This document shows, piece by piece, positions 6,999 to 34,405 of a stretch of DNA of 64,000 bases. Made by a program: the position numbers and the translations under genes. The notes beneath the pieces were generated by a model, which did no database searches, was not told where the DNA came from, and saw only the letters and a program-made list of their open reading frames with translations. Numbering within the stretch: position 1 is the stretch's first letter; every line of letters begins with the position of its first letter. Source of the DNA: Conexibacter woesei Iso977N (lineage in GTDB: Bacteria; Actinomycetota; Thermoleophilia; Solirubrobacterales; Solirubrobacteraceae); the NCBI RefSeq assembly GCF_000424625.1, contig NZ_AUKG01000002.1:1798001-1862000 (forward strand). The letters are read 5' to 3'.

Positions 6999-8272
6999 GG
7001 CTTGTTGGTGTCGATGAGGTTGGTGTCGCCGCGGGCGTCGATCACGCGGCCGTCGGCGAGGTGGAGGTGCAGGACGACCGCGTCGGGGTCGACGCTCGGC
7101 GGGAGGATCAGCAGGACGCCGCCGTTGCGCTGCAGCGCGAGCGGGCGCTCGGGCGCGCCGCCGCCGGGCACGGTGTAGGAGACGCGGCGCACGTCGCTGC
7201 CGGCCTGGCCCCAGAGCGCCGTGACCGGCGCCGCGCCGCGCGGCCAGTGGCCGGTCGGGACGGGGCCGAGCGTCGTGTGCACCGTCGCTTGCGACAGGCG
7301 CCGGGCCGCGAAGAACCAGCCGCGCCCGTCCTTCAGCCGCGCGCAGACCTGCGGGCTGATCGTGTTCTCGTTGCTGATCCGCGCGCGCTGGAAGTACGCG
7401 CAGCTCGCGCCCGCCAGCGCGCTGTGGACCGATCCGGAGCTCGCGACGCTGACGTTCTCCAGCCGCCACGCGCCGCCGCCGTTCGGGGCCGCGACGACGT
7501 TGGGCCCGATGCCGAACGCGCGCGTCTCGCGGTGGCCGCCGGCGAACCTCAGCGTGACGCGGATCCCGTGGTCCTCGGGATACCCACGCAGGACCGCGGC
7601 GAACGTGCCGTGGTCGAGCGGCAGCGCACGCGCGGCCGTCCCGTCGGCGAGCGCGAGCGTGACGCTGCGGAGGTTCGCGCCGCCCACGCCGCTGACGACC
7701 GTCCGGGCGTCCGCGTCGCGCGGCGCGTCGAAGATCCGGGCGCCGATCAAGGTGATGTCCTTGCCTTGCGGCGCGCCACACGAGTCGCTGACGCCCGCGT
7801 CGAAGACCCGGAACCTGCCGTCGTTGCCGACGAGCCCGAACCGCCCCGTCGCGTCGACCTGCCCGACCGTCGAGCACACCAGCCCACCCTTGCTGCTGCG
7901 CGCGACCCGGACCGTCCACGGCAGCTTGCCCCGTCCCGGATCCGCCAGCCGGAAGCTCGCGACCCGCGCGGTCCCCGGCGCGGCGACCTGCTCCGGCGGC
8001 GTGTCCGACGCCGTCGGGATCACCGCGCCGCGCAGCGCCAGCAACGTCCCACCCGCAGCACTCGCCGCACCGACGGTGACCAGCGCCGCCGCCACCGCCA
8101 GCGTCCGCATCGGCGGCCGGCGCCGCCCGCGCGCCGCCGCGCCCGCACGCCCGCCGGTCCTCCGCGCCGTCGCTGCGCCCGACGGCGCGGCGCCGCGCGC
8201 GACGGCGTTGCTCCGGGCGGCGGCCTCGACGAGGTCGCGCTCCAGCCCGTCCAGGAAGAACTCCGCGCTCAT
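6995..8272 (-). CDS. putative membrane-bound anti-sigma factor
   Basis: 425 residues: an N-terminal cytoplasmic segment of about 50 residues (FFLDGLERDLVEAAAR, then a basic Ala/Gly/Arg linker), one membrane segment near residues 57-80, and a large outer domain. It immediately follows an ECF sigma gene with a four-base ATGA overlap, the normal place for an anti-sigma factor. It lacks the HxxxCxxC zinc motif of the common ZAS family, so any sigma binding must use another fold or just the short helix. The outer domain resembles the downstream 424-residue protein. Identification rests on context, not on a recognised domain. Confidence 0.65.
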   Translation of the reverse strand: MSAEFFLDGLERDLVEAAARSNAVARGAAPSGAATARRTGGRAGAAARGRRRPPMRTLAVAAALVTVGAASAAGGTLLALRGAVIPTASDTPPEQVAAPGTARVASFRLADPGRGKLPWTVRVARSSKGGLVCSTVGQVDATGRFGLVGNDGRFRVFDAGVSDSCGAPQGKDITLIGARIFDAPRDADARTVVSGVGGANLRSVTLALADGTAARALPLDHGTFAAVLRGYPEDHGIRVTLRFAGGHRETRAFGIGPNVVAAPNGGGAWRLENVSVASSGSVHSALAGASCAYFQRARISNENTISPQVCARLKDGRGWFFAARRLSQATVHTTLGPVPTGHWPRGAAPVTALWGQAGSDVRRVSYTVPGGGAPERPLALQRNGGVLLILPPSVDPDAVVLHLHLADGRVIDARGDTNLIDTNKP

Positions 8273-8826
8273 CGCGCCCCCATCCGCGTCCGCAGGACGG
8301 CCAGCCCGCGGCTGACCCGCTGGCGCACCACCGCGTCGGAGACCTGCAGCTCCGCCGCGATGTCGCCGTACTCGCGCTCCTGGACCACCCGCGCCAGGAT
8401 CGCCTCGCGCTGCTCGTCCGGCAGGTCGGCGAGCAAGGACGACATGTCGATCCCCCGCCCCACGTCGACCAGCTCCTCGATCCGCTCCAGGTCGCGGTCG
8501 GTCAGCGCCCGCGGCGGGATGCCGAGACGCTTGCGGGCGGCGTCCTCGACGCGGCCGCGGCGAACCGAGTCCACCAGCCGCGACGAGGCCATCATGAACA
8601 GCCAGCCCCGCGCCGGGCCGCGGGCGGCGTCGTAGCGACCGGCCTGCTCCAGCGCGCAGGCGAACGTCTCGGCGCACAGGTCCGCCGCGACCTCCGTGTT
8701 GCGCGTGCGCGCGATCAGGAACGCCAGGACCGCCCGGACGTGGCGCCGGTAGAAGACCCCGAACGCCTCGGGGTCCTGCGCGGTGGCCGCGAGCAACGCG
8801 GCGTCGGTGGGCGTCTCGGCGGCCAC
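8269..8826 (-). CDS. ECF-type RNA polymerase sigma factor
   Basis: A 185-residue sigma-70 family factor with region 2 (FGVFYRRHVRAVLAFLIARTRN, then ADLCAETFACALEQ and the -10 recognition helix GWLFMMASSRLVDSVRR) and region 4 (LLADLPDEQREAILARVVQEREYGDIAAELQVSDAVVRQRVSRGL). GTG at 8826 is the start. It heads a three-gene overlapping operon with two membrane proteins, the usual arrangement of a membrane-stress or extracytoplasmic signal system. ECF groups are often autoregulated, but no promoter could be assigned confidently in the 54 bases upstream. Confidence 0.93.
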   Translation of the reverse strand: MAAETPTDAALLAATAQDPEAFGVFYRRHVRAVLAFLIARTRNTEVAADLCAETFACALEQAGRYDAARGPARGWLFMMASSRLVDSVRRGRVEDAARKRLGIPPRALTDRDLERIEELVDVGRGIDMSSLLADLPDEQREAILARVVQEREYGDIAAELQVSDAVVRQRVSRGLAVLRTRMGAR

Positions 8827-19603: not shown

Positions 19604-20851
19604 ATGGCCGAGCACGCTGCCTTGGCGGCCACCGCGCCCCCGACCCCGTCACCAGCCGATGCTGAGGTGCTCTTCGCACGTCAGCCGATCCTGGACGCCG
19701 ACTCCCGGCTGGCGGGCTACGAGCTGCTGTACCGCGGCGAGGGTGGCAGCGAGTCCCCGCATGCGGCCACGTCGAGAGTCGCGGCCTCCGCCCTCTCCGA
19801 CCTCGGCCTCCGCCAGGCCACCGGCGGCGCGCCCGCGTTCCTGAACGTCACGACCGAGTTCCTGCTCGCGATGGACCCGCTGCCGTTCGGCCCCGACGGC
19901 GTCGTCCTCGAGATCGCCGCCGACCGCCTCCCGGACGGCCCGCTGCTCGAGCGCCTCGGCCGCCTGCGCCAGCACGGCTACATGCTCGCCCTCGACGGCT
20001 ACGCCGGCCAGCCGTCGGCCGACCCGCTGCTGGACTTCGCGACGCTCGCCAAGGTCGACTCGCGCAACCTCAACCCATCCGGCCTCGCGCTGACCGTCTC
20101 GCACCTGCGCAGCCGCGGGATCAAGCCGATCGCCAACGGCGTCGACGCCCACACCGACCACGACCGCTGCGCCGACGCCGGCTTCGAGCTCTTCCAGGGC
20201 GACTTCGTCTGCCGCCCGCGCGAGGTCGTCGGCCACAACGTCCCGACCGCGTCGATCGGCGCGCTGCGCCTCGCCGCGGGCATCAGCGCCGGCGACGAGG
20301 GCGACGTCGACGAGCTGGAGAAGGCGATCGCGCTCGACCCGGGCCTGAGCCTGCGCCTGCTGCGGTTCGTCAACAGCGCCGCCTTCAGCCTCCGACACCA
20401 GATCAAGTCCGTGCGCCAGGCGATCGTCCTGCTCGGCCCGCGCACCGTCCGCCAGTGGGCGATGCTCCTGCTGCTCTCCGGCATCGACGAGAAGCGCGGC
20501 CCGCTGCTGATCACCGCCCTCTCGCGCGGGCGCACCTGCGAGGCGATCGCCAGGCGCCTCGGCGCCGACGACGCCAACGCCTACTTCTTCACCGGCATGT
20601 TGTCGGTCGTCGACGCGATGCTCGACCAGCCGATGGACGAGGCGGTCCGCGACCTCCCGCTCTCCGAGGACGTCGTCGCCGCCCTCGTCGACCGCGCCGG
20701 CGGCAAGGGCCGCACGCTCACGATGGCCGAGGCCTGCGAGCGCGGCGCCTGGGACGACGCGGCGCTGCCGAGCCTCGACGCCGGCGAGCTGGCGGTCCTG
20801 CACGTCGAAGCCCTCACCTGGGCCGACGGAACGGCGGCGGGACTGACGTGA
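19604..20851 (+). CDS. EAL-HDOD signalling protein, first of a tandem pair
   Basis: 415 residues: an N-terminal EAL-like domain (FARQPILDADSRLAGYELLYRG to about residue 205) and a C-terminal HDOD domain (LSLRLLRFVNSAAFSLRHQIKSVRQAIVLLGPRTVRQW). The EAL active site is eroded: ELL replaces EAL and the DDFG metal motif reads LDGYAGQ, so c-di-GMP hydrolysis is unlikely. Such YuxH/CdgJ-type proteins act as effectors in motility and surface behaviour in other bacteria. It overlaps the second copy by GTGA. The leader contains a hairpin covering the ribosome-binding site. Confidence 0.88.
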   Translation: MAEHAALAATAPPTPSPADAEVLFARQPILDADSRLAGYELLYRGEGGSESPHAATSRVAASALSDLGLRQATGGAPAFLNVTTEFLLAMDPLPFGPDGVVLEIAADRLPDGPLLERLGRLRQHGYMLALDGYAGQPSADPLLDFATLAKVDSRNLNPSGLALTVSHLRSRGIKPIANGVDAHTDHDRCADAGFELFQGDFVCRPREVVGHNVPTASIGALRLAAGISAGDEGDVDELEKAIALDPGLSLRLLRFVNSAAFSLRHQIKSVRQAIVLLGPRTVRQWAMLLLLSGIDEKRGPLLITALSRGRTCEAIARRLGADDANAYFFTGMLSVVDAMLDQPMDEAVRDLPLSEDVVAALVDRAGGKGRTLTMAEACERGAWDDAALPSLDAGELAVLHVEALTWADGTAAGLT

Positions 20852-22065
20852 GCACCGGCGTCGCGGAGGCTCCTCCCGAGGCCCCGCGCGTCCTGTTCGC
20901 CCGCCAAGCGATCGTCGCGCGCGGGGGACGGCTCGCGGGCTACGAGCTGCTCTATCGCGGTCCGCGCGGCGCGGACGGCGAGATCCCGGACGCCGAGCAC
21001 GCCACGTGCCAGGTGCTGGTCGGCGCGTTCGCCGAGGTCGGCATGAGCGCGGCGGTCGGCGGCGCGACCGCGTTCCTCAACGTCACCGAGCGCTTCCTGC
21101 GCGAGATCGATCCGATCCCCCTCACGCCCGAGTCCACCGTGTTGGAGCTGCTGGAGGACGCCACGCCCTCCCCCGCGCTCATGGACCGCCTCGCGCACCT
21201 GCGCGCCCAGGGCTTCCGGATCGCGCTCGACGACTTCGCGCCCACGCGCGCCAACCGCCAGCTGCTGGACGCCGCCGACCTCGTCAAGGTCGACCTGCGC
21301 GCGCACTCCAGGCGCGAGGCGAGCAAGATCATCAAGTCGATCTCGTCGAGCGGGATCCCGGTCGTCGCCGAGAAGGTCGAGGACCAGGACGAGTACGACT
21401 GGGCCGCCGACGCGGGCGCCAAGCTGTTCCAGGGGTACTTCTTCTGCAAGCCGACGCCGCTGGCCGGCCAGGAGCTGCGGGCCGCGTCGATCGACCGCCT
21501 GCGCGCCGCCGCGGGGCTGACGCACCCGGACTCCGGGCTGGAGGAGATCGAGGCGGCGATCACCGTCGACCCGCACCTCTCGCTGAGGTTGTTGCAGCAG
21601 TTGAACTCGGCCGCGGTGATGCTGCCCAACCGGATCTCCTCGATCCGCCAGGGCGTGATCCTGCTCGGCCCGCGGACCGTGCGCCAGTGGGCGCTGGTGC
21701 TGCTGCTGTCCGGGATCGGCGAGCAGCGCGGGCCGCTGCTGGCGACCGCGCTGGCGCGTGCCCGGACGATGGAGCTGGTGGCGCCGATGAAGGGCTTCAC
21801 CGACCGCGACGCGTGGTTCTCGGTCGGCCTGCTGTCGGTCTGCGACGCGCTCGCGAACGCGCCGATGGAGCAGGTTGTACGGGAACTGCCGCTGGCCGAC
21901 GACGTGATCGACGCGCTGGTGCACCGCGAGGGCGTCAAGGGCGAGGCGTTGCAGCACGCGATCGCCTGCGAGCGCGGCGAGCTGCCGGCGCAGGACGCGC
22001 GGATGTTCCTGGCGGCCTACGTGGACGCGGTCGCTTGGGCCGACGCCCACGCCGCGGGCCATTGA
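20848..22065 (+). CDS. EAL-HDOD signalling protein, second of a tandem pair
   Basis: 405 residues, clearly a paralogue of the preceding gene along its whole length (FARQAIVARGGRLAGYELLYRG; LSLRLLQQLNSAAVMLPNRISSIRQGVILLGPRTVRQW). It keeps more of the EAL core: IALDDFAPT retains the DDF motif and LVKVDLR the following Asp, but ELL again replaces EAL. It starts at a GTG that overlaps the first gene's stop, so the two are made together, perhaps as partners in a heterodimer. The TGA ends four bases before a convergent esterase gene. Confidence 0.88.
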   Translation: MSTGVAEAPPEAPRVLFARQAIVARGGRLAGYELLYRGPRGADGEIPDAEHATCQVLVGAFAEVGMSAAVGGATAFLNVTERFLREIDPIPLTPESTVLELLEDATPSPALMDRLAHLRAQGFRIALDDFAPTRANRQLLDAADLVKVDLRAHSRREASKIIKSISSSGIPVVAEKVEDQDEYDWAADAGAKLFQGYFFCKPTPLAGQELRAASIDRLRAAAGLTHPDSGLEEIEAAITVDPHLSLRLLQQLNSAAVMLPNRISSIRQGVILLGPRTVRQWALVLLLSGIGEQRGPLLATALARARTMELVAPMKGFTDRDAWFSVGLLSVCDALANAPMEQVVRELPLADDVIDALVHREGVKGEALQHAIACERGELPAQDARMFLAAYVDAVAWADAHAAGH

Positions 22066-22993: not shown

Positions 22994-24970
22994 CTAGGCC
23001 TCGGACAGGACCGAGCCGTGGCCGGCGAGGAGCGCGGCTTCGATCTTGCGTGCGATCTCCTTGCCGGTGAAGCCGATCTCGGCGTGCAGCAGCGCCGGCT
23101 TGCCGTGCGTGACGTAGCGGTCGGGCACGCCGATCCGCAGCATCTTCGGCACGTGCACGCCCGCGTCGTTGAGCGCCTCCCACACGCCGGAGCCGAAGCC
23201 ACCGGACAGGACGCCCTCCTCGACCGTGACGAGCAGCTCGTGCTCGGCCGCCAGCCCACGCAGCAGCTCCATGTCCAGCGGCTTGGCGAAGCGCGCGTCG
23301 ACGACGGTCACGTCGAGGTCATGCTCGGCCAGCAGCGCGGCCGCCTCGAGCGACTTGCCCACGCCGGACCCGTAGCCGATCAGCGCGACCCGCGAGCCCT
23401 CGCGCAGCACCTCGCCCTTGCCGACCGGGATCGCCTGCACCTCGGCGCTCGACGGCAGAGCAACCCCTACACCTTCGCCACGCGGGTAGCGCAGCCCGAA
23501 CGGGCCGCCCTGCGTCAGCGCGGTCCGCAGCAGGTGCTTCAGCTGCGCCTCGTCGCGCGGCGCGGCCAGCGTGATGTTCGGCAGCGCGCGCAGGTAGGCG
23601 ATGTCGAAGACGCCATGGTGCGTCGGGCCGTCGTCGCCGACCAGGCCCGCGCGGTCCATCGCGAACGTCACGTCGAGCTCCTGCAGGCAGACGTCGTGGA
23701 CGATCTGGTCGTAGGCGCGCTGGAGGAACGTCGAGTAGATCGCGCAGACCGGCTTCGCGCCCTCCAGCGCCAAACCGGAAGCGAACAGCACCGCCTGCTG
23801 CTCGGCGATCCCGACGTCGAAGTAGTGCTCGGGCTCGGCCTTCTGGAGCAGGTTCAGCCCGGTGCCGGAGTTCATCGCGGCCGTGATCCCGACGACGCGC
23901 CGGTCGCGGCGCACCTCGTCGATCAGCGCCTCGCCGAACACCGCCGTGTACTGCGGGATCGCCGGCGTGACCGGATGTGCCGCCGAGGCCGGCGTCTTGA
24001 CGACCACCGTCGGCGCGCGGTTGGTGATCGACTTGGGCTTGGCGGCATGCCACTTCTCCATGCCCTCCAGCCCGCCGTCCTCGGCGGGCATGAAGCCCTT
24101 GCCCTTCACCGTCGCCGTGTGCAGGACGACCGGCCGCCCGGCCTCCAGCGCCGCCTTCAGCGCGCGCCGCAGCGCGCGGACGTCATGGCCGTCGATGACG
24201 CCCATGTAGGCCCAGTCCAGCTCCTCCCAGAACAGGCCCGGCGCCCAGAACGACTTGATCGACTCCTTCAGCTGCGGGCCGAGGCGGTCGAACGCCGCGC
24301 CGATCCCGCCCGGCAGCGTGATCAGCTTCTCCTCGACGCCCTCGCGGGCGTGCCACAGCTTCGGGTTCAGCCGCACGCGGTTGAAGTAGCGCGACAGCGC
24401 GCCGACGTTCGGCGAGATCGACATCCCGTTGTCGTTGAGCACCACGACCATCGGCGTGCCCAGCCCGCCGGCCTGGTGGATCGCCTCGAACGCCACGCCA
24501 CCGGTCATCGCGCCGTCGCCGATCACCGCGACCACGCGGCCCGCGTCGACGTCGCCCGCGAGCTTCATGCCCTCCTTGATCCCGACGGCGTAGCCGATCG
24601 AGGTCGAGGCATGGCCCGCGCCCATGATGTCGTGCTCGGACTCGTGGATCGCGCAGAACGGCGCAAGACCTTCGTATTGACGGATCGTCGGGAGCTGGTC
24701 CCGGCGGCCGGTCAGGATCTTGTGCGGGTAGGCCTGGTGGCCGACGTCCCAGAGGATCTTGTCGGTCGGCGAGTCCAGGACCGAGTGCAGCGCGACCGCG
24801 ATCTCGCACGTGCCGAGGTTGGCGCCGAAGTGGCCGCCGATCTCCCCGACCGTGTCGATGATGTGCTCGCGGACCTCCTGCGCCACCTGCTGCAGCTGCT
24901 CCTCGGAGAGCCCATGGAGGTCCTTGGGAGCGTCGATGCGGTCGAGCAGGCGTTCGGGAGGTTGCGTCAT
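22994..24970 (-). CDS. dxs: 1-deoxy-D-xylulose-5-phosphate synthase
   Basis: First enzyme of the MEP isoprenoid pathway, condensing pyruvate and glyceraldehyde 3-phosphate with thiamine diphosphate. The 658-residue protein has WDVGHQAYPHKILTGR, the ThDP site GDGAMTGGVAFEA with LNDNGMSI, and the transketolase-like pyrimidine domain (DVGIAEQQAVLFASGLA). Order and length are standard. ATG at 24970 overlaps the polyprenyl synthase stop (ATGA), linking precursor supply to chain elongation. Confidence 0.98.
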   Translation of the reverse strand: MTQPPERLLDRIDAPKDLHGLSEEQLQQVAQEVREHIIDTVGEIGGHFGANLGTCEIAVALHSVLDSPTDKILWDVGHQAYPHKILTGRRDQLPTIRQYEGLAPFCAIHESEHDIMGAGHASTSIGYAVGIKEGMKLAGDVDAGRVVAVIGDGAMTGGVAFEAIHQAGGLGTPMVVVLNDNGMSISPNVGALSRYFNRVRLNPKLWHAREGVEEKLITLPGGIGAAFDRLGPQLKESIKSFWAPGLFWEELDWAYMGVIDGHDVRALRRALKAALEAGRPVVLHTATVKGKGFMPAEDGGLEGMEKWHAAKPKSITNRAPTVVVKTPASAAHPVTPAIPQYTAVFGEALIDEVRRDRRVVGITAAMNSGTGLNLLQKAEPEHYFDVGIAEQQAVLFASGLALEGAKPVCAIYSTFLQRAYDQIVHDVCLQELDVTFAMDRAGLVGDDGPTHHGVFDIAYLRALPNITLAAPRDEAQLKHLLRTALTQGGPFGLRYPRGEGVGVALPSSAEVQAIPVGKGEVLREGSRVALIGYGSGVGKSLEAAALLAEHDLDVTVVDARFAKPLDMELLRGLAAEHELLVTVEEGVLSGGFGSGVWEALNDAGVHVPKMLRIGVPDRYVTHGKPALLHAEIGFTGKEIARKIEAALLAGHGSVLSEA

Positions 24971-25845
24971 GAAGTCCGGGTGAAGATGAAGTCGGTGATC
25001 TGCTCCAGCTCGGGCGCACCCTGCGGAGCGGAAGTTCTAAGGGTAGCCCTGGCAGCCGCGTGTGAGTCGGCCGCGAGCTTCCTGGCGCCGTCGAGCCCGA
25101 ATTCGGTCACATACGTCCGCTTGCCGTGGCGCTCGTCGGAGCCCTGCGGCTTGCCGAGATCCTGGTCGGTCCCGGTGACGTCCAGGATGTCGTCCACGAT
25201 CTGGAACAGGACGCCCAGCTCCTGGGCGAAGCGGCGCCAGCCGAGCGTCTCGTCCGCGTCGTCGCGGATCCCGCCGAGCAGCAGGACGCAGATGACCGAC
25301 GCGCCGATCAGGCGGCCGGTCTTGAGCTCGTGCAGGCGCCGCAGGTCGGCGGGCGTCTCGGACACGCCGGAGACGTCCAGGTACTGACCGCCGACCATCC
25401 CGTCCACGCCGGTCGCGGCAGCGAGCTCGCGCGCGGCGGCCAGGACCCTGTCGGGCTCGCCGGGCTGAGCGGTCAGCAGGTGGCGGAACGCCTCGGCGTA
25501 GAGTGCGTCGCCGGCCAGGATCGCGACGTCCTCGCCGAACTTGACGTGGCACGTCGGCCGCCCGCGGCGCAGGTCGTCGTCGTCCATCGCCGGGAGGTCG
25601 TCGTGGATCAGCGAGTAGGTGTGGATCAGCTCCAGCGCGGCCGCCAGCGGCAGGACCTGCTGCTGGTCGAGGCCGACGGCGCTCGCGGTGGCGAGCGCCA
25701 GGACCGGCCGGATCCGCTTGCCGCCCGCGAGCAGCGAGTAGCGCATGGCCTCCTCGAGGCCCTCGGTCCGCGGCGCGCGGCTCGGGAAGCGCAGCGCGTC
25801 GAGGTAGACGTCGACCTGCGCGCGGAGGTGGTCGGGGTAGACCAC
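24967..25845 (-). CDS. ispA: polyprenyl (geranyl/farnesyl) diphosphate synthase
   Basis: A 292-residue trans-isoprenyl diphosphate synthase. The first Asp-rich motif is IHDDLPAMDDDDLRRG, the second QIVDDILDVTG, and GGKRIRPVL near residue 42 binds the allylic substrate. The DD-x4-D spacing of the first motif is typical of the bacterial FPP/IspA branch; the exact chain length cannot be read with certainty. GTG at 25845 is the start. It is preceded by xseB and coupled to dxs, the common xseB-ispA-dxs order. Confidence 0.94.
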   Translation of the reverse strand: MVYPDHLRAQVDVYLDALRFPSRAPRTEGLEEAMRYSLLAGGKRIRPVLALATASAVGLDQQQVLPLAAALELIHTYSLIHDDLPAMDDDDLRRGRPTCHVKFGEDVAILAGDALYAEAFRHLLTAQPGEPDRVLAAARELAAATGVDGMVGGQYLDVSGVSETPADLRRLHELKTGRLIGASVICVLLLGGIRDDADETLGWRRFAQELGVLFQIVDDILDVTGTDQDLGKPQGSDERHGKRTYVTEFGLDGARKLAADSHAAARATLRTSAPQGAPELEQITDFIFTRTS

Positions 25846-25856
25846 GGTCTGGACGC

Positions 25857-26084
25857 TCAGAGCAGGTGGTCCTGGCCGGGATGCGGCTCGGCGGCGGCCG
25901 CCCGCGAGAGGCGGTCCAGCTCGGCGCTGGCCTGCGAGGCCAGCGAGGCGGCGTCCTCGACGAGGGTCGCTGCCGCGTCCGGGCTCACGTCGCCGGACCG
26001 CAGCTGCTCCGCGGTGCGCTCCAGCCGCGTGACCAGCGCGTCGAGCTGGGAGGCGGCGTCGTCAGTCGTGCTCACCCGCGACAT
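25857..26084 (-). CDS. xseB: exodeoxyribonuclease VII small subunit
   Basis: 75 residues matching the XseB helical hairpin: LDALVTRLERTAEQLRSGDV, then SPDAAATLVEDAASLASQAS. It forms the small subunit of exonuclease VII, which degrades single-stranded DNA. xseA is usually adjacent but is not in the window. The gene sits 11 bases upstream of the polyprenyl synthase, as in many bacteria. ATG at 26084 is the assumed start; a GTG at codon 4 is possible. Confidence 0.75.
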   Translation of the reverse strand: MSRVSTTDDAASQLDALVTRLERTAEQLRSGDVSPDAAATLVEDAASLASQASAELDRLSRAAAAEPHPGQDHLL

Positions 26085-26109: not shown

Positions 26110-27369
26110 TCAGCCGCCGAAGTCGGCGAGGTCGATCGTGGTGGTCCTGCGCGGCGCCGTGCGCGCGGGCGGCGCGGGGTCCGGATCCGGATCGCCGGAG
26201 AGATCGGCGAGGTCGACGGAGGTCCTGGGGTCCTCGTGGGCGGGCGGCCTGGCGGTCGGCGAGTCGGAGACGGGCTGCTGCGCGGGCGGCGTGGCGGTCG
26301 TCGTCGTGGTGCGTGCGGTCGTGGTCGGCTTCGCCCGGGCCGGAGCCGCGGCGCTCTGGGTCGTGACCGGCTTGGCCGCGGCCGCCGCGGCCGCGGGCGC
26401 CGCGGCGACGGCGCGCGGCCTGACGCGGGCGCGACGCTCCGCCGTCCTCGGCCGTTGATGGTGGTCTTGCTCGGTCGCCTCCTTCACGCCGACCGCTGCG
26501 CCACCACCCGCCAGCAGCGCGCAGCACGCGCCGACCGTGAGCTTCGCCGCCAGGCCGCCACCGCCCGCGGTCGTGCTCGCCGCGACGGCCCCGCCGCCGC
26601 CCGCCGCCGCGCCGCCACCGCCGAAGACCTTCAACAACGCCGCCAGCCCCGAGCCGCCGCCCGCGAACGGCACCAACAACGAGAGCTCGCGCTCGACGCC
26701 CGCGTGCGCGCGCCGGAACGCCCGGCACTCCACGCACCCCGCCAGGTGCCGCCGGTCGCGCCGCGCGAGCCTGAGCTTCCCCGCGTCCGACGCCGCCACC
26801 AGCCGGTCCCGGACGTCGCGGCAGGTCGTGTCGCGCGCCTCGGCCGCGTCGGTCAGCGCGACTCGCGCGCGGTGCACGAGCATCCGCGACGACGTCGTCG
26901 AGATCCCGAGCGCCTCGCCGACCGCCTCGTGCGACAGCCCGCCCAGCTCGCGCAGCAGCAGCGCGCTGCGCTGGCCGTCGGTCAGCGCGCCGATGTCCTT
27001 CAACAACGCGCGCATCGTCTCGCGCTGCTCGATCGCGTTGGCGGGATCGGCGGTCGCGCCCTCGCTGGCGGTCTCCTCGGCGTCCAGGTCGTCGGTGAGC
27101 GGCCTGCGCAGCACGTCGATGCAGCGGTTGTGCGCGACCCGGAACAGCCACGGCCGGACGTCGATCTCGCGGTCGTCGCGGCGCAGCGCCTGGTAGGCGC
27201 GCAGGAACACGTCCTGCGCCGCGTCCTCCGGATCGTGCGCGCTGCCGCGCAACATGTAGGCCGCGTAGTTGCGGATGGCGTCGGCGTAGCGCGCGTGCAG
27301 GGCCGCGAACGCCGTCTCGTCACCGGCCCGGAACCTGCGCAGCAGCGCGGCGTCGCTGCGCACGCTCAT
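26110..27369 (-). CDS. ECF sigma factor fused to zinc-finger motif, membrane helix and outer tail
   Basis: 419 residues. Region 2 spans about 9-90 (ARYADAIRNYAAYMLRG, DPEDAAQDVFLRAYQAL) and region 4 about 118-172 (LTDGQRSALLLRELGGLSHEAVGEALGISTTSSRML). A zinc anti-sigma-like motif HLAGCVEC follows at 208-215. Next come a Gly/Ala-rich hinge, a hydrophobic segment near 274-296, a basic patch, then a Pro/Thr/Ala-rich tail ending in two related motifs, SVDLADLSG (384-392) and TIDLADFGG (411-419). The layout resembles known ECF groups with C-terminal membrane extensions. It shares one base (TGATG) with the FG-GAP operon upstream. Confidence 0.87.
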   Translation of the reverse strand: MSVRSDAALLRRFRAGDETAFAALHARYADAIRNYAAYMLRGSAHDPEDAAQDVFLRAYQALRRDDREIDVRPWLFRVAHNRCIDVLRRPLTDDLDAEETASEGATADPANAIEQRETMRALLKDIGALTDGQRSALLLRELGGLSHEAVGEALGISTTSSRMLVHRARVALTDAAEARDTTCRDVRDRLVAASDAGKLRLARRDRRHLAGCVECRAFRRAHAGVERELSLLVPFAGGGSGLAALLKVFGGGGAAAGGGGAVAASTTAGGGGLAAKLTVGACCALLAGGGAAVGVKEATEQDHHQRPRTAERRARVRPRAVAAAPAAAAAAAKPVTTQSAAAPARAKPTTTARTTTTTATPPAQQPVSDSPTARPPAHEDPRTSVDLADLSGDPDPDPAPPARTAPRRTTTIDLADFGG

Positions 27370-29045
27370 CACGGCGCGACCCCGGTGATCACCCACGCGG
27401 CACCCGCCCGCAGGCGGCCGTCGCGCGTCGCGCCGGGGCCGGAGATCAGGAGGTCCGGGCGCCCGTCGCCGTTGAAGTCGCCGGCCGGCGCCGCGGCCAT
27501 GCCGAGCGCGTCCTGCGCGTAGGCGCCGTCGATCCGGACCGTCGAGCCGCGATGCGGTCCGGACAGGGCGATCCGCCCGGCGCCGCTGCGCCCGCGGAAC
27601 ACGAACGCCGAGCCGGCGCCCTGGCGCCCCTTCGGCGACCAGTTGCCGCCCGTGAGGACGTCGTCGCGGCCGTCGCCGTCGAGGTCGCCGACGATCGCCG
27701 CCGCGTCGATCGGCGTCGGCCCGAGCATCGGCGCGGTCGGCAACACCGCCCCCGCCGGGGCGTTCTTCGGCGGGGGCGGCGCCGGGATGTACGGGACCGA
27801 CGGGCTGACCGCGGTCAGCACGCGGGCGCTCGGGCGGTCGACGTAGACCGGAGCGCCCGACGGCGCGCCGTGGACGACGTCGACCGCCCCCGCGTAGCGC
27901 TGGTGGCCGAGCAGCACGTGCGAGACCACCAGGACGTCGCCGCGCCCGTCGCCATCGGTGTCGCCGCCGCCGCTGACCTGCGGCTCCTGGTTGAGCTGGC
28001 GGGAGTCCAGCAGCCGGAAGCCGTCGGCCGGGCCGAGCGCGTCGAGCTGCAGCGGCGGCCCGCCCGCGGCGGTGCGGCCGAAGGCGACCGTCCCGACCAG
28101 CGTGTCGGTGCCGGGCAGCTGCTTCCAGGTCCCGAGCACGACCTCGGCGCGGTGATCGCCGTTCATGTCGGCGGCCAGCGACGCGGAGTCGATGGCGGGG
28201 CTGTCGATCCGGTAGCCGGCGGTGCCGAGCGCGCCGGTGCTGATCGTCGTGCCCGGCTGCGCGAGCGCGCTGCCGTGGCCGCCGAAGAGGACGTAGGCGT
28301 GCCGCGGATTGGGCGCCGGGAGGTCGGCCGGCGTCCTGACGCCGGTGTAGTCCGGCGACGTCGCCTCGTCGGTGAGCACGATGTCCGGGTGGCCGTCGCC
28401 GTTGACGTCGCGGCCGCCCGCGAGGGTCGTCCCGAGCTGGAAGGTCAGCGGCACGTCGTTGGCGATGCGCATGCCGCGCACGCCGAGGTACCCGAGGTCG
28501 ATCGCGCTCGGGTGGCGGCTGCCGTAGATGATGGACACGCTGCCCATCGCGCCTTCGGGCGCCCGCGGCTGGTTGGGGATGATCGGGACCGGCGCGCCGT
28601 CGTCGGACGCCACGACGACGTCGTCCAGCCCGTCGCCGTTGACGTCGCCCGCGGGCGCGATCGCGTTGCCGACCTCGTCGCCCGCGTGGGCGCCGACGAT
28701 CGCGAAGCCCTGCGCGTGCGCGCCGTTCATCGCGATGCGGGCCGCGGGGTGCGCCCTGACCTCCGCGTGGGAGCGGCGGCGGCCGAAGACGACGTAGACC
28801 GCGCCCGCGTTCTTGCGCCTCAGCGGGTCGGCGGACGGTGCGGCGATCAGGACGTCGTCGACGCCGTCGCCGTTGACGTCGCCCGCGGGCGCGACCTGCG
28901 AGCCGGCGAAGTCGATCGGGCCGGCGCCGATGATCTCGAACGACGGCTGGTGGCGCAGGTCGACGTCGGTGCCCGCGTGGGCGGCCGCCGGGACGGCGAA
29001 CGCGAGCGACGTGACGATGGCGAGGGTCGGCAGCAGCTTGGTCAT
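27369..29045 (-). CDS. secreted FG-GAP repeat (integrin-like) beta-propeller, copy 1
   Basis: 558 residues with a signal peptide (KLLPTLAIVTSLAFAVPAAAHA, cleaved near residue 24). Seven calcium-loop repeats of the DxNxDG type can be counted (GDVNGDGVDD, GDVNGDGLDD, RDVNGDGHPD, ADMNGDHRAE, GDTDGDGRGD, GDLDGDGRDD, GDFNGDGRPD), each with FG-GAP-like strands (YVVFGRR). This predicts a seven-bladed extracellular propeller. ATG at 29045 begins the signal peptide. The stop shares one base with the sigma-fusion start. It is paralogous to the next two genes; the ligand is unknown. Confidence 0.92.
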   Translation of the reverse strand: MTKLLPTLAIVTSLAFAVPAAAHAGTDVDLRHQPSFEIIGAGPIDFAGSQVAPAGDVNGDGVDDVLIAAPSADPLRRKNAGAVYVVFGRRRSHAEVRAHPAARIAMNGAHAQGFAIVGAHAGDEVGNAIAPAGDVNGDGLDDVVVASDDGAPVPIIPNQPRAPEGAMGSVSIIYGSRHPSAIDLGYLGVRGMRIANDVPLTFQLGTTLAGGRDVNGDGHPDIVLTDEATSPDYTGVRTPADLPAPNPRHAYVLFGGHGSALAQPGTTISTGALGTAGYRIDSPAIDSASLAADMNGDHRAEVVLGTWKQLPGTDTLVGTVAFGRTAAGGPPLQLDALGPADGFRLLDSRQLNQEPQVSGGGDTDGDGRGDVLVVSHVLLGHQRYAGAVDVVHGAPSGAPVYVDRPSARVLTAVSPSVPYIPAPPPPKNAPAGAVLPTAPMLGPTPIDAAAIVGDLDGDGRDDVLTGGNWSPKGRQGAGSAFVFRGRSGAGRIALSGPHRGSTVRIDGAYAQDALGMAAAPAGDFNGDGRPDLLISGPGATRDGRLRAGAAWVITGVAP

Positions 29046-29069
29046 CAGCTGCAGAACGTGCGAATCCGC

Positions 29070-29086
29070 TGACCGTAACGCGGTCA
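29070..29086 (-). promoter_or_regulatory. inverted repeat shared with the copy-3 leader (copy A)
   Basis: TGACCG-TAACG-CGGTCA, a 6-bp inverted repeat overlapping the last codon of FG-GAP copy 2, 25 bases upstream of the copy-1 ATG. The same core with near-identical downstream bases occurs upstream of copy 3 at 32367-32393, so it is a duplicated leader element. It could be a hairpin attenuator or an operator. Confidence 0.5.
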
Positions 29087-30682
29087 CGGGCGCACCCCGC
29101 TCAGGACCCACGCGACGCCCGCGTTGGGGCGGCCGTTGCGGGTCGCCTCGAAGCCGCCGATCAGGAGGTCCGGGCGGTGGTCGCCGTCGAAGTCCCCGGC
29201 GGGCGCGACCGTGCTGCCGAACGAGTCGTCGGCGTAGGCGCCGTCGATCCGCACGACGCCGGGCGCGCGCTTGGCGGTCAGCTCGGTGGTGCCCGCGCGG
29301 GGCGCGCGGAACAGGAACGCCGAGCCCGCGCCGAAGCGATCGTGCGGCGAGGCGAAGCCGCCCGCCAGGACGTCGGCACGGCCGTCGCCGTCCGCGTCCG
29401 GGACGATCGCGACGTCGCGCAGCGGGTTGGGACCCAGGATGTACCGGTTCCTGTGGCGCCCGTTGTCGACCATCGGGACGGTCGGGCCGATCGCACGCAG
29501 CACTTGCTGACCGGGACGCTCGAGGTGACGCAGCCTGCCGGACGGGCCGCCGAACAGGACCTCCGCGACGCCCGCGTAGGACCGCTTGCCGCGCAACGTG
29601 TAGGTCGCGGCCACGAGGTCGCCGCGCCCGTCGCCGTTGACGTCGTCACCGCCGACGATCCGTGGTTGCTCGGAGTACTTCCGGTCGTTGCGGATCGCGA
29701 ACCCGCCGTGGGCACCGAGCTGCTCCAACACCATCGTCTTGGTGCCGGCCCGCCCGAAGGCCACGTAGGCCACGTTCCTGTTCCCGTAGCTGCCGTCCTC
29801 CTCTCCCACGACCACCTCGGCGCGGTGGTCGCCGTTCATGTCGGCCGCCAGCGAGAGCGTGCCGAGGAAGTGGGCGTCGATCCGGTAGCCGGCGCCGCCG
29901 AGCCGATCGACATGGAGGACTTGCCCGCCACGCAGCGCGCCGCCGAAGATCACGTAGGCCGACGACCGGTCGCGGGGCGGGATCTTCGGAGCCCGCACCA
30001 GCGGGTACGGGACCGTCATGTCGCTCACCACGACGTCCGGATGGCCGTCGCCGTTGACGTCTCGCCCGCCCGCGACCTGCGTGCCGAGCTGGACGCGGCC
30101 GGCCGGCGCGCCCGCGATCTCGACGCCCTGGTCGCCGAGGTGCGCGAGGTCGACGGCCGTCCCGTCCTTCTTGCCGAAGACGACGTAGGCCGCGCCCGCG
30201 TGCACGTACACGCCGCCGATGCCGTTGGACCGTGGGACGTCCGGGCCGTCATCCGGGACGCCGACGATCACGTCGTCCAGGCCGTCGCCGTTGACGTCGC
30301 CCACGCTGGCGACCGACGTGCCGGCGTGTCCGTCGGCGGCGGGACCGTCGATCCGGAAGCCCTGCGTGTCCGCCCCGCCGTCGGCGGCGATCTGGGCGCG
30401 CGGCAGCGCCGGGACCCCGCGGCGCCCGAACACGACGTAGACGGCACCGGAGTAGGCACCCTCCGGGCCGTTCGCGCTCGGCGCCGCGATCAACACGTCG
30501 TCGATGCCGTCGCCGTTGACGTCCCCGGCGGACGCGACCGCCTCCCCGGCGAAGTCCTGCGGATGGGCGCCGACGATCTCGAACGAGGGCGTGGTGCGCA
30601 GGTCGACGGTGGGCGCCGCGACGGCGGCGCCGGGCAGCGCGGCAACGGCGAGCAGCGTGGCGAGGGCGAGGCGCGCGGTCAT
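29084..30682 (-). CDS. secreted FG-GAP repeat beta-propeller, copy 2
   Basis: 532 residues, signal peptide TARLALATLLAVAALPGAAVA cleaved near residue 22. The mature start PTVDLRTTPSFEIVGAH is nearly the same as in the two neighbouring copies. Seven Asp-rich calcium loops are present (GDVNGDGIDD, GDVNGDGLDD, RDVNGDGHPD, ADMNGDHRAE, DDVNGDGRGD, PDADGDGRAD, GDFDGDHRPD). Repeat order matches copy 1, so the whole gene was duplicated. ATG at 30682 overlaps the copy-3 stop (ATGA). It ends inside the shared inverted repeat before copy 1. Confidence 0.92.
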   Translation of the reverse strand: MTARLALATLLAVAALPGAAVAAPTVDLRTTPSFEIVGAHPQDFAGEAVASAGDVNGDGIDDVLIAAPSANGPEGAYSGAVYVVFGRRGVPALPRAQIAADGGADTQGFRIDGPAADGHAGTSVASVGDVNGDGLDDVIVGVPDDGPDVPRSNGIGGVYVHAGAAYVVFGKKDGTAVDLAHLGDQGVEIAGAPAGRVQLGTQVAGGRDVNGDGHPDVVVSDMTVPYPLVRAPKIPPRDRSSAYVIFGGALRGGQVLHVDRLGGAGYRIDAHFLGTLSLAADMNGDHRAEVVVGEEDGSYGNRNVAYVAFGRAGTKTMVLEQLGAHGGFAIRNDRKYSEQPRIVGGDDVNGDGRGDLVAATYTLRGKRSYAGVAEVLFGGPSGRLRHLERPGQQVLRAIGPTVPMVDNGRHRNRYILGPNPLRDVAIVPDADGDGRADVLAGGFASPHDRFGAGSAFLFRAPRAGTTELTAKRAPGVVRIDGAYADDSFGSTVAPAGDFDGDHRPDLLIGGFEATRNGRPNAGVAWVLSGVRP

Positions 30683-32346
30683 CGCGCCGCCCCCGACAGG
30701 ACGAACACCGCGCCGGCCCACGCGCGCCCCTCGCGCATCGCGTCCTGCGCGGCGACCATCACGTCCGGCCGCCCGTCGCCGTCGAAGTCCCCGGCGCCCG
30801 CGACGGCGCTGCCGAGGCGGTCGCCCGCGTAGGCGCCCCGGACCTCCACCGACCCGCGGCCGTGCAGCGCGATCGTCCCGGCGCCGCGGCGGCCCGGCAG
30901 GATCACCGCCGCGCCCTTCCAGTGTCGCTCGTCCGGGTCCGAGCCGCCCAGGACGACGCCCATCGCGATCCGGCCCGGGCCGACGATCGCCGACGTCACG
31001 ATCCCCTCGCCCTTGCGCGTGTTCGGGTTCTCGTACAAGTACGTGTACCTGCCCGACGGCAGCAGCGTGCGCGCCATCGGCTGGGCCTCGGCGCGGACGG
31101 TCAGCAGGCGCGGCGAGGGCCGGTTGAGCCAGACCGTGTCGCCGGACGGCGCGCCGAAGACGACCGAGGTCGCCGACGCCCAGCGGTGGCCGGGCAGCGG
31201 CTCGGCGCCGGTCATGATCAGGTCGCCGCGGCCGTCGCCGTTGACGTCGTCGCCGCCGGTCGCGCCCATGATCCCGTTGACGTCGGTCGGGCGGCCGTCG
31301 TAGACCGCGAAGCCGTCGGCGGGGCCGAGCTGGTCCAGCGTCACGTCGCCGCTGCCGGCCGGGCGGCCGAACACGACGCGCACGTGGATCGTGCCCTTCG
31401 CGCCGGTCCCGAAGCCGTTGATGACGAGCTCGGCGCGGCCGTCGCCGTTCATGTCGGCGGCCAGCGAGACGAGCCCGATGCCGTAGCCGCCGACGCGGTA
31501 GCCGGCGGCGCCGAGCCGGTCGGCGTGCAGGATCGTGCCGCCGTGCAGCTGGGCGCCGGAGATCACGTAGGCGTAGGACCGCTCCGACGGGTCCGGCAGC
31601 GCGCCGATCGGGCGGATCGGCTGGTCGGCGACCACGAGGTCCGGGCGGCCGTCGCCGTCGACGTCGCGCCCGCCGGCGATGGTGCCGCCGAAGCCGGTGG
31701 TCCCGCCGGGCGCCGGCTCCGGGCCGAGGATCTCCATGCCCTGGGCGGGGTCCAGGTGGGCGAGGTCGACCGCGGCGCCGTCGCGCTTGCCGTAGACGAT
31801 GTAGACGGCGCCCTGGTAGTCGAGGATGTCGGGTGCGCCCGCGACGGGCGCGACCGGCCCGAGCGACGTGGTCGTCCCGGTGCGGGCGCCGACCGCGACG
31901 TCGGCGAGGCCGTCGCCGTTGACGTCGCCGACCGCGGCGAGGGTCGCGCCGAGGTGCGCCTGCGCGTTGGGGCCGACGATCCGGAAGCCCTGGGCGCGCC
32001 GGGCCGCGCCGGCGGCGGCGATCCGGGCGATCGGCGCGCGGCGGATCGCGGCCGCGGCGCGGCGGCGGCCGAAGACGACGTAGGCGGAGCCGCCGTTGAA
32101 GCGGCCGGGCGCGTTCTGGAGCGGCGCCCCGACGATGACGTCGTCGATCCCGTCGCCGTTGACGTCGCCCGCCGCCGAGACCGCGTTGCCCGCGTTGGCG
32201 TTGACCGTGGGGCCGACGATCTCGAACGCCGGGTGGGTGCGCAGGTCGATCGGCGCGGCGTGGGCGGCGCGCGGCGGCGTGAGCGTGAGGGACAGCAGCA
32301 GCGCGAGCGCGCAGCCGAGTGGGGCGGTGAGGCGTGGGACGGTCAT
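30679..32346 (-). CDS. secreted FG-GAP repeat beta-propeller, copy 3 (first in operon)
   Basis: 555 residues with signal peptide (PLGCALALLLSLTLTPPRAAHA) and the same mature opening, PIDLRTHPAFEIVGP. Six clear calcium loops (GDVNGDGIDD, GDVNGDGLAD, RDVDGDGRPD, ADMNGDGRAE, DDVNGDGRGD, GDFDGDGRPD) surround a blade whose loop has decayed (VLGGSDPDERHWKG in place of the sixth motif). It is the first FG-GAP gene of the run. A long hairpin element lies 21 bases upstream of its ATG. Adhesion or carbohydrate binding is typical of the fold, but the target is unknown. Confidence 0.92.
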   Translation of the reverse strand: MTVPRLTAPLGCALALLLSLTLTPPRAAHAAPIDLRTHPAFEIVGPTVNANAGNAVSAAGDVNGDGIDDVIVGAPLQNAPGRFNGGSAYVVFGRRRAAAAIRRAPIARIAAAGAARRAQGFRIVGPNAQAHLGATLAAVGDVNGDGLADVAVGARTGTTTSLGPVAPVAGAPDILDYQGAVYIVYGKRDGAAVDLAHLDPAQGMEILGPEPAPGGTTGFGGTIAGGRDVDGDGRPDLVVADQPIRPIGALPDPSERSYAYVISGAQLHGGTILHADRLGAAGYRVGGYGIGLVSLAADMNGDGRAELVINGFGTGAKGTIHVRVVFGRPAGSGDVTLDQLGPADGFAVYDGRPTDVNGIMGATGGDDVNGDGRGDLIMTGAEPLPGHRWASATSVVFGAPSGDTVWLNRPSPRLLTVRAEAQPMARTLLPSGRYTYLYENPNTRKGEGIVTSAIVGPGRIAMGVVLGGSDPDERHWKGAAVILPGRRGAGTIALHGRGSVEVRGAYAGDRLGSAVAGAGDFDGDGRPDVMVAAQDAMREGRAWAGAVFVLSGAAR

Positions 32347-32366: not shown

Positions 32367-32393
32367 GCCGCTGACCGTAACGCGGTCAGCGGC
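32367..32393 (-). promoter_or_regulatory. long hairpin/inverted repeat between nusB and FG-GAP copy 3 (copy B)
   Basis: An 11-bp perfect inverted repeat (GCCGCTGACCG / CGGTCAGCGGC) with loop TAACG. It lies 21 bases after the nusB stop and 21 bases before the copy-3 ATG on the minus strand. No T-run follows. The same core and flank occur upstream of FG-GAP copy 1, so a regulatory role for this gene set is at least as likely as termination of the efp-nusB transcript. Confidence 0.55.
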
Positions 32394-32413: not shown

Positions 32414-32836
32414 TCAGCCGTCGGTCTGCGGCGCCGGCTCGGCGCGCTGCTCGCGCAGCGCGGCGGCGAGGATGCCGTTGACGAACTTCGGCGCGTCGGC
32501 GCCGCAGAACTCCTTGGCGGTCTCGATCGCTTCGTCGATCGCGCCCTCGGCCGGGATCGGGGTCTCGGCCGGGACGGCGTCGGGGTGCAGCATCTCCAGC
32601 AGGGCGACGCGCATGATCGCCTTCTCCAGCGGGGCGATCCGGTCGATCGTCCAGCCCTTGGCGTGGCGCTCGATCACGCCGTCCAGGTCGGAGGCGTAGT
32701 CGGAGGAGGCGTAGGCGAGCGCGCGCGTGAACGTCGTCGCGTTGGTGTCGAAGACGTCGTCCAGCTCGCGCCTGGTGACGTCGTGCTGGTAGAGCGCGAA
32801 CGCGGCGGCGCGGCGCTGGTCGGAGCGGCGGGACAT
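32414..32836 (-). CDS. nusB: transcription antitermination factor NusB
   Basis: All-helical 140-residue protein that with NusE (S10) binds boxA RNA for rRNA antitermination. Visible motifs are SDQRRAAAFALYQHDVTR, GWTIDRIAPLEKAIMRVALLEML and VPAETPIPAEGAIDEAIETAKEFCGADAPKFVNGILAA, split here into the family's helices. Its ATG shares one base with the efp stop (TGATG), the usual efp-nusB pairing. A short acidic/Gln tail ends the protein. Confidence 0.95.
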   Translation of the reverse strand: MSRRSDQRRAAAFALYQHDVTRRELDDVFDTNATTFTRALAYASSDYASDLDGVIERHAKGWTIDRIAPLEKAIMRVALLEMLHPDAVPAETPIPAEGAIDEAIETAKEFCGADAPKFVNGILAAALREQRAEPAPQTDG

Positions 32837-33396: not shown

Positions 33397-33511
33397 GGTG
33401 ATGCCCTTGCACTTCGTCGGTTCGCGTTGACCGTTAGATGGTAGGCGGCGGACGGGTGCGGTGTCCGGACGTCGACCGCTGACGATCCACCAAGTGGGGT
33501 ATCAGCCGCTC

Positions 33512-34405
33512 ATGCTTTCTCACCGTCTTGCGTTGCTGAGCCTCTCCAGTCTCGTAGCCGTCGCTCTCGTGGCGCCGGTGGCGCGGGGTGACACGGTCAT
33601 CCCCGGGAACCAGGAAGTCCAGGGGTTCCAGTGCCTGGGGCCGACCTGCGCCAACGGCGAGAGCTTCCCGGTCAACTCGCCGCTGCTCCTCATCAAGGAC
33701 CCCAACACGCCCGGGATCCGGTTCATGGAGTCCGGCGGCTCGTTCGGCACCCAGACCTGGGACGTCGAGGGCAACGAGTCGAACTTCTTCATCCGCGACA
33801 CGACCAACGGCAACACGCTGCCGTTCCGGATCCGGCCGGGCGCGCCGACGAGCGGGTTCGACATGGGCGCCAACGGCAACATCCTCAACCGCGGCCTGGT
33901 CCAGCAGAACGCCGGCGACATGGCCTCGCCGAGCGTCGCCGACGGGAACGACCTGCTGACGAGGCTCTCGTCGGTGCCGGTCAACGACTACACCTACGCG
34001 AGCGCGAGGCACATCGCCCCGGACCCGGCGACGTTCTTCTCGTCGCTCGGGATCGGCTCCGCCAACAACGTCCTCGCGCCCCAGGACGTGGCGGGCGTCG
34101 CGCTGGCGGGCGTCAAGGCGCTGAACACGAGGCTCGCGTCGATCACGACGACGCCCGGGCCCGCGGGTCCCGCCGGGCCGACGGGCGCGACCGGCCCGCA
34201 GGGGCCGAAGGGCGACAAGGGCGACACCGGCGCGACGGGCGCCACCGGCGCCACCGGCCCGCAGGGCCCGGCCGGCACGACGCCGGACCTGACCGCGCTG
34301 AAGGCCGCCGTCAGGAGGCTCCAGACCTCGAACGCCAGGCTGACGAGGCAGGTCAGGACGCTGCGCACCCAGATGGACGAAGTCCGCAGGGTCCTCGGCC
34401 TCTGA
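33512..34405 (+). CDS. secreted collagen-like protein with coiled-coil end
   Basis: 297 residues. Signal peptide at 1-27 (LALLSLSSLVAVALVAPVARG), then a beta-rich region with TWDVEGNESNFFIRD and NGNTLPFRIRPGAPTSG like those in tail-fibre or head-domain proteins. A collagen tract of 13 Gly-X-Y triplets follows at residues 216-255 (GPAGPAGPTGATGPQ, GDKGDTGATGATGATG). The end is a heptad coiled coil (LKAAVRRLQTSNARLTRQVRTL). ATG at 33512 is chosen because it begins the signal peptide. It probably trimerises outside the cell; the partner is unknown. Confidence 0.82.
   Translation: MLSHRLALLSLSSLVAVALVAPVARGDTVIPGNQEVQGFQCLGPTCANGESFPVNSPLLLIKDPNTPGIRFMESGGSFGTQTWDVEGNESNFFIRDTTNGNTLPFRIRPGAPTSGFDMGANGNILNRGLVQQNAGDMASPSVADGNDLLTRLSSVPVNDYTYASARHIAPDPATFFSSLGIGSANNVLAPQDVAGVALAGVKALNTRLASITTTPGPAGPAGPTGATGPQGPKGDKGDTGATGATGATGPQGPAGTTPDLTALKAAVRRLQTSNARLTRQVRTLRTQMDEVRRVLGL

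Follow-up and report, generated by a model that had tools for sequence, protein, structure and literature searches.

An extracytoplasmic function sigma fusion gene joined to three secreted FG-GAP propeller genes in Conexibacter woesei Iso977N: a candidate autoregulated cassette

The extracytoplasmic function (ECF) sigma factor SCO4117 of Streptomyces coelicolor, a member of ECF52, consists of an ECF domain, a zinc finger, a membrane region and a Pro-rich outer extension (PMC5826349). Members of ECF48 and ECF53 carry a C-terminal zinc finger with one or two membrane helices, and their regulation is expected to be proteolytic, while IutY of Pseudomonas putida (ECF243) is a fused sigma/anti-sigma factor that is freed by regulated proteolysis (PMC8999054). 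Here we describe a four-gene cassette on the minus strand of a 64,000-nucleotide stretch of the Conexibacter woesei Iso977N genome (NZ_AUKG01000002.1, positions 1,798,001 to 1,862,000; hereafter the window, whose own numbering is used throughout). Three genes encoding secreted FG-GAP propellers, FG3, FG2 and FG1, are followed by a gene whose product joins an ECF sigma factor to a zinc anti-sigma motif, a candidate membrane helix and a Pro-rich tail (26110-32346). A previous sequence-only reading had recognized this locus and had noted that ECF factors with C-terminal membrane extensions are known.

The ECF domain, zinc motif, candidate membrane segment and Pro-rich extension correspond to parts of ECF52, and the 123-residue tail is Pro-rich as described for that group (PMC5826349). 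The cassette protein differs in having no carbohydrate-binding Pfam match at E ≤ 0.1 and in its tail, which is short and predicted to be disordered. Its operon with secreted propellers is a feature that the available text on ECF52 does not mention (PMC5826349). The likeness to ECF48 and ECF53 is one of description, namely a zinc motif and a membrane-helix candidate after the sigma domain (PMC8999054). With IutY the protein shares the joining of sigma and anti-sigma factor in one chain; unlike it, IutY serves iron-starvation surface signalling, responds to a siderophore and has another outer partner (PMC8999054). In the open-licence literature, judged partly by title, no paper was found on FG-GAP proteins coupled to an ECF sigma/anti-sigma factor; none was found there on ECF sigma factors in Thermoleophilia, nor on SH3 domains with fused ECF/anti-sigma proteins.

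We propose, at about even confidence, that the cassette is an autoregulated, membrane-held unit of an ECF sigma factor and secreted proteins. The reading is drawn from the gene overlaps, a remnant of the cassette in the closest relative, the association of a related clade of sigma fusions (clade C, below) with secreted proteins, and an upstream element shared by two of the genes. By analogy with ECF48, ECF52 and ECF53, the zinc anti-sigma segment and membrane anchor of the same protein would keep the ECF domain silent, and a signal from the envelope, received by the outer tail, could lead to proteolytic release of the sigma domain. The freed sigma factor might then transcribe its own operon from the elements before FG3 and FG1, as their -10-like site would suggest. 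The secreted calcium-type propellers would be the cell-surface output of the operon and may feed back on the tail, a possibility raised by related operons, in which secreted proteins and the sigma ectodomain have modules in common. If true, the cassette would represent a one-protein membrane sigma switch linked to secreted integrin-like calcium proteins. The clade C pattern would provide candidate extracellular partners for the poorly understood ECF48/52/53-type sigma factors, as well as a direct test of signal sensing by their outer parts.

Architecture of the cassette

Gene calls and Pfam matches placed the three secreted FG-GAP genes and the sigma fusion where the sequence-only reading had put them, and its three junctions were recovered from the sequence: FG3 and FG2 overlap by ATGA, FG2 and FG1 are 38 nt apart, and FG1 shares TGATG with the sigma gene. 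The analysis supports a single operon-like block with a tethered-sigma architecture, as had been claimed, present as one unit within a housekeeping cluster. A search for canonical sigma-70 promoters returned none, and the only terminator-like site has a T-rich tail that lies on the other strand.

Comparison with relatives favors the ATG at 27369 as the start of the sigma protein, giving 419 amino acids and replacing the mechanically called GTG at 27396. Pfam matches to Sigma70_r2 (E 4.5e-14) and Sigma70_r4_2 (E 1.6e-9), with regions 2 and 4 only, together with structure matches to sigmaE, SigW and AlgU, identify the N-terminal part as an ECF sigma factor. The zinc motif previously noted (HLAGCVEC) is present; its residues C183, H208, C212 and C215 are invariant in all 23 aligned sigma fusions, and the pattern C-x(22-28)-HxxxCxxC occurs in 63 of 64 other fusions. 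No Pfam zinc-finger match was obtained at E ≤ 0.1, so that the protein resembles the ECF48/52/53 type at this point by motif only. The Pro/Thr-rich tail claimed earlier was confirmed, while the membrane helix claimed with it came out as a weak candidate: a 19-residue Gly/Ala-rich segment, the sole membrane candidate after the zinc motif (best 19-mer, mean Kyte-Doolittle hydropathy 1.86), with an Arg-rich flank. The topology, with the tail outside, is to be read as a prediction.

All three propellers gave strong Pfam FG-GAP matches (E 6e-32 to 3e-35) and have readable Sec-type signal peptides at their N-termini. They had been described as seven-bladed; FG1 and FG2 do show seven calcium motifs each, but FG3 shows six, and each protein ends soon after its last blade or motif. 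The Pfam matches and motifs thus identify FG-GAP/integrin-alpha-like propellers, with a blade number that is a reading of motifs and is one motif short in FG3. An AlphaFold2 model of FG2 (mean predicted local distance difference test score, 79; predicted template modeling score, 0.85) was compared with the PDB, and the best 50 of 413 matches at E ≤ 10 were all integrin structures (best E 4.7e-13). From these motifs, the propellers probably bind calcium.

The propellers share fold and calcium motifs with the bacterial integrin-alpha-like FG-GAP proteins, but differ from them in sequence and in being linked to a sigma gene. No close full-length relative of the trio was found in 100 relatives, 20 of which gave weaker, repeat-level matches, and a peptide-pattern scan of public genome contigs, covering 65 loci, found no trio orthologue. 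The best full-length relatives in that scan, from Sphingomonas and its relatives and from Bathymodiolus symbionts, were 31-34% identical. Seven plasmid records matched in small pieces, none covering 80%.

Distribution of the fusion and its secreted partners

The sigma fusion is widespread: of the 61 family genomes searched, the present one among them, 59 gave a match at E ≤ 1e-30, and all seven genomes of the genus did so at E ≤ 1e-25. For comparison we examined 64 further sigma loci, consisting of 4 loci, 20 of 35 matches from the genus search and 40 of at least about 150 matches from the family search. Each was picked before its neighborhood was read, but when the last 40 were chosen the first 24 had already shown the pattern. 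Gene calling relied on a home-made codon score, for which genes of the window served as the training set, and signal peptides were called by a crude hydropathy rule. No FG-GAP gene was present within up to 6 kb on each side of any of the 64 loci, 43 of which had less than 6 kb on one side and three (L152, L160 and L167) less than 3 kb. A single isolated calcium motif lay near 5 of the 64, compared with the 20 motifs of the cassette. Conversely, 25 FG-GAP loci elsewhere (20 + 5, a subset of all those in the relatives) included three with a sigma homologue, about 3 kb off and never adjacent. A conserved FG-GAP/sigma-fusion pairing, for which the sequence-only reading had suggested a search, was not found in these loci; that reading had itself named the wide occurrence of the fusion without FG-GAP neighbors as the observation that would count against it. 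The FG-GAP coupling is lineage-specific, intact in one genome and present as a remnant in its closest relative.

This remnant informs the history of the block. Within the housekeeping cluster efp, nusB, xseB, ispA, dxs, the cassette occupies the space that separates nusB from xseB. A direct search found nusB and xseB adjacent in 17 of 20 loci of relatives; in the other three, nusB was not found (L186), xseB was not found (L188), or a remnant lay in between (genome G001). G001, the closest relative by ispA (91% identical), was the only one of the 20 with sigma or FG-GAP homologues at this place, in the form of an FG3 fragment fused to the end of the sigma tail. Most simply, then, the block was already present in the common ancestor of both genomes: the four genes would have stood there as one unit between nusB and xseB, largely deleted since in G001.

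A tree of 65 sigma-plus-zinc regions recovered a group (support 81/97) made up of clade A, clade C and the sigma factor of this cassette. Clade A comprises 12 sequences, often encoded beside a thiolase or Glu/Leu dehydrogenase gene, and the four of its tails that were read are of low complexity. In this tree the cassette sigma joins clade C (13 sequences) with support 96/79. For 11 of the 13 clade C fusions, one or both of the two nearest genes upstream on the same strand encoded a secreted protein, versus 5 of 51 fusions elsewhere, and several of these five are small membrane proteins or doubtful. The Fisher p value of 3.8e-7 overstates independence because the clade C sequences are related; on the sigma tree the trait requires seven changes.

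The secreted proteins of clade C are SH3-like (62-96 amino acids), belong to a beta-module family (142-154 amino acids) or are about 250 amino acids long. The first two kinds are homologous to modules of the sigma ectodomains themselves (best E 7e-12 and 5e-5, respectively), most of which carry a beta module and an SH3-like end; the proteins of about 250 amino acids gave no ectodomain match at E ≤ 0.05, and four that were tested had no Pfam match. The homology of the ectodomains to separately secreted proteins supports an outside location of the C-terminal part in clade C. As judged from predicted secretion and gene order, the comparison shows that a sigma fusion with a secreted protein is a recurrent arrangement, of which the FG-GAP cassette appears to be a variant confined to one lineage. 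Both have the sigma domain, zinc motif, membrane segment (a weak candidate in the cassette) and secreted proteins encoded directly upstream; they differ in that the clade C partners are not FG-GAP proteins. Examples are L242:5033-7491, L159:6593-9367, L256:5052-7520 and L240:5013-8279, among others. A secreted protein of 789-796 amino acids is encoded close to a clade B fusion, on the opposite strand (L046:10921-13311, L158:9772-12141); the one in L046 carries a choice-of-anchor A domain.

The clade C ectodomains also bear on whether the extension of the cassette sigma is instead a cytoplasmic anti-sigma segment, responsive to redox state or zinc, with the tail inside and no outer signal. RsrA uses a similar set of Cys/His ligands, and the conservation of these ligands, the weak membrane helix with its low confidence in the model and the Arg-rich start of the tail would all fit such a protein. 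However, the bacterial SH3 domains in clade C ectodomains, homologous as they are to secreted proteins, point to an outside location of this part in relatives, and we regard a cytoplasmic extension as improbable.

The FG-GAP genes and the sigma gene could also be mere neighbors, located together without functional coupling. The lack of FG-GAP genes within up to 6 kb of the 64 other fusions, the presence of a sigma homologue, never adjacent, at only 3 of 25 FG-GAP loci and the single genome with an intact pair would be expected in that case. Against it stand the TGATG and ATGA overlaps within a single block, the loss of most of both parts in G001, the upstream element common to FG3 and FG1 and the secreted-protein/sigma pattern of the related clade C. 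We consider such uncoupled neighborhood unlikely.

Upstream elements and a candidate promoter

The proposal that the unit is autoregulated draws on a 21-nt element, TGACCGCGTTACGGTCAGCGG, which lies before FG3 and again before FG1. These two sites, both exact, were the only ones in the genome, with no other within three mismatches. The exact 15-nt hairpin core was found among the seven genus genomes in this cassette (twice) and in G001 (once) only, and the 21-mer with up to three mismatches in 16 of 61 genomes, versus 3 of 61 for a reversed control. The DNA before the FG3 and FG1 starts agrees at 38 of 44 aligned positions, compared with 73.5% for their coding DNA. The predicted hairpin is strong before FG3 (-45.6 kcal/mol, z -3.8) and less marked before FG1 (z -1.4).

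Within the element, CGTTACGGT resembles the sequence [ACG]GTTA[GC]AGT found upstream of clade A sigma genes. The pattern GTTA[GC][AG]GT occurred in 8 of 12 clade A upstream regions (0.07 expected), six of these eight sites having been seen already when the pattern was written, and in 2 of 4 in this cassette. None of the 49 regions taken upstream of sigma genes from clades B, C, D and E contained it; in these counts the upstream regions of L046, L154 and L157 are misplaced, since the called sigma open reading frames overrun the real gene. With a matrix built from the clade A sites alone, five places in the window scored at least as high as the cassette sites, two being these sites. For six of the eight sites in clade A, an AAC-type -35 is found at roughly the expected spacing. 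These promoter-like sites (L045, L149, L151, L152, L257, L260, L261 and L262), mostly pairing an AAC-type -35 with a [ACG]GTTA(G/C)AGT -10, suggest autoregulation in clade A.

Several observations weigh against an autoregulated, membrane-held unit. The -10-like site is missing from clade C (0 of 12), and the placement of the cassette sigma with that clade is tentative, since joining it to clade A was not rejected (approximately unbiased test, p-AU 0.27). The -10 pattern was widened at one position to fit the cassette sites. A formal -35 pattern was matched in 1 of 12 clade A, 3 of 12 clade C and 1 of 14 clade E regions and in none of this cassette; before FG3 the -35 half is weak, before FG1 there is none, and for this reason the elements are put forward as putative promoters only. 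The -10-like site lies within a palindrome, which might instead be an operator or an RNA hairpin, and read-through from nusB into the cassette is possible. The membrane helix, as noted, is weak, and the Arg-rich flank is its outer, C-terminal one.

Tail peptides, feature coordinates and flanking genes

The sequence-only reading had suggested that the tail senses the propellers, either free or attached to a surface or polysaccharide, and that this releases the sigma factor. In this model, which may be widened to retention as well as release of the sigma factor, the propellers would be the signal or a co-sensor and would bind to the outer tail. The tail contains two peptides, TSVDLADLSG and, at its C-terminus, TTIDLADFGG, that resemble the FG-GAP segment TAVDLAHLGD and, more generally, the inter-blade segments VDLAHL of FG2 and FG3 and IDLGYL of FG1. 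Both VDLAD-type peptides persist in the G001 remnant despite changes in the linker between them. A profile of this single inter-blade site, chosen after the match had been seen, was applied to 18,208 windows taken from the 63 proteins of the 64-kb stretch that are not FG-GAP proteins; 3 windows scored as high, two of the three being these tail peptides, and 0 of 64 other sigma tails did so. The pairing of sigma factors with secreted homologues of their ectodomain modules in related operons points the same way.

Broader scans spoke against a specific likeness. When all propeller windows were scanned, the real tail was equalled or beaten by 20 of 300 shuffled versions, as well as by 4 of the 60 other tails compared. 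A general shuffle test was non-significant for windows of 7 and 9 and gave 42 of 1000 for windows of 12, where the match paired an Ala-rich stretch with a signal peptide. Another profile scan, from which the relevant site was excluded by alignment gaps, favored nothing in the tail. With such weak statistics we treat the tail-propeller likeness as a lead, and sensing of the propellers by the tail as rather unlikely. We would give still less credence, as a long shot, to a more general scheme in which sigma factors of this family use exchangeable secreted partners that mimic their own outer part, the propellers here docking on the VDLAD peptides and gating release by what they bind outside.

Table 1. 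Features of the cassette and its immediate flanks (window positions; aa, amino acids)
Feature	Position	Strand	Basis or remark
nusB, 5' flank of cassette	32414..32836	-	
Element TGACCGCGTTACGGTCAGCGG before FG3	32368..32388	-	-10-like CGTTACGGT at 32374-32382
FG3, secreted FG-GAP propeller, 555 aa	30679..32346	-	6 calcium motifs
FG2, secreted FG-GAP propeller, 532 aa	29084..30682	-	7 calcium motifs; model resembles integrin propellers
Second exact copy of TGACCGCGTTACGGTCAGCGG, before FG1	29066..29086	-	CGTTACGGT at 29072-29080
FG1, secreted FG-GAP propeller, 558 aa	27369..29045	-	7 calcium motifs
ECF sigma factor fused to zinc anti-sigma motif, weak candidate membrane helix and tail (predicted disordered), 419 aa	26110..27369	-	
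Sigma region 2	27103..27297	-	Pfam, residues renumbered from ATG
Sigma region 4	26854..26994	-	Pfam, residues renumbered from ATG
Zinc anti-sigma motif C183..H208xxxC212xxC215	26725..26823	-	Alignment and pattern
Candidate membrane helix LTVGACCALLAGGGAAVGV	26485..26541	-	Mean hydropathy 1.86; low confidence in model
Pro/Thr/Ala-rich tail, predicted disordered, 123 aa	26110..26481	-	Composition and model
Tail peptide TSVDLADLSG	26194..26223	-	TSVDLADLGH in G001 remnant
C-terminal tail peptide TTIDLADFGG	26113..26142	-	TTIDLADLDGG in G001 remnant
xseB, 3' flank of cassette	25857..26084	-	

The cassette separates xseB, ispA and dxs (22994-26084) from efp and nusB, and these three genes may therefore need read-through from the cassette or a promoter of their own. 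The housekeeping cluster is broken a second time in L174 (genome G020), where xseB lies beside nusB and a gene of 611 amino acids on the opposite strand (1153-2988) is inserted between xseB and ispA. A foreign origin of the cassette was considered from its composition, which gave no clear sign of one: its GC content at third codon positions is like that of its neighbors, and its overall GC is slightly above the window mean (0.74-0.77 versus 0.73).

The plus strand opposite efp (33494-34405) encodes a protein that is probably secreted and contains collagen-like Gly-X-Y sequence. A further ECF-like gene, identified by eye at 8269-8826, is followed by two same-strand genes (5724-8826 in all), the second of which has a secreted-type N-terminus. 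Two adjoining plus-strand genes at 19604-22065 are apparently homologous, with an LFARQ motif in both, and presumably encode signalling proteins of the EAL/HDOD type.

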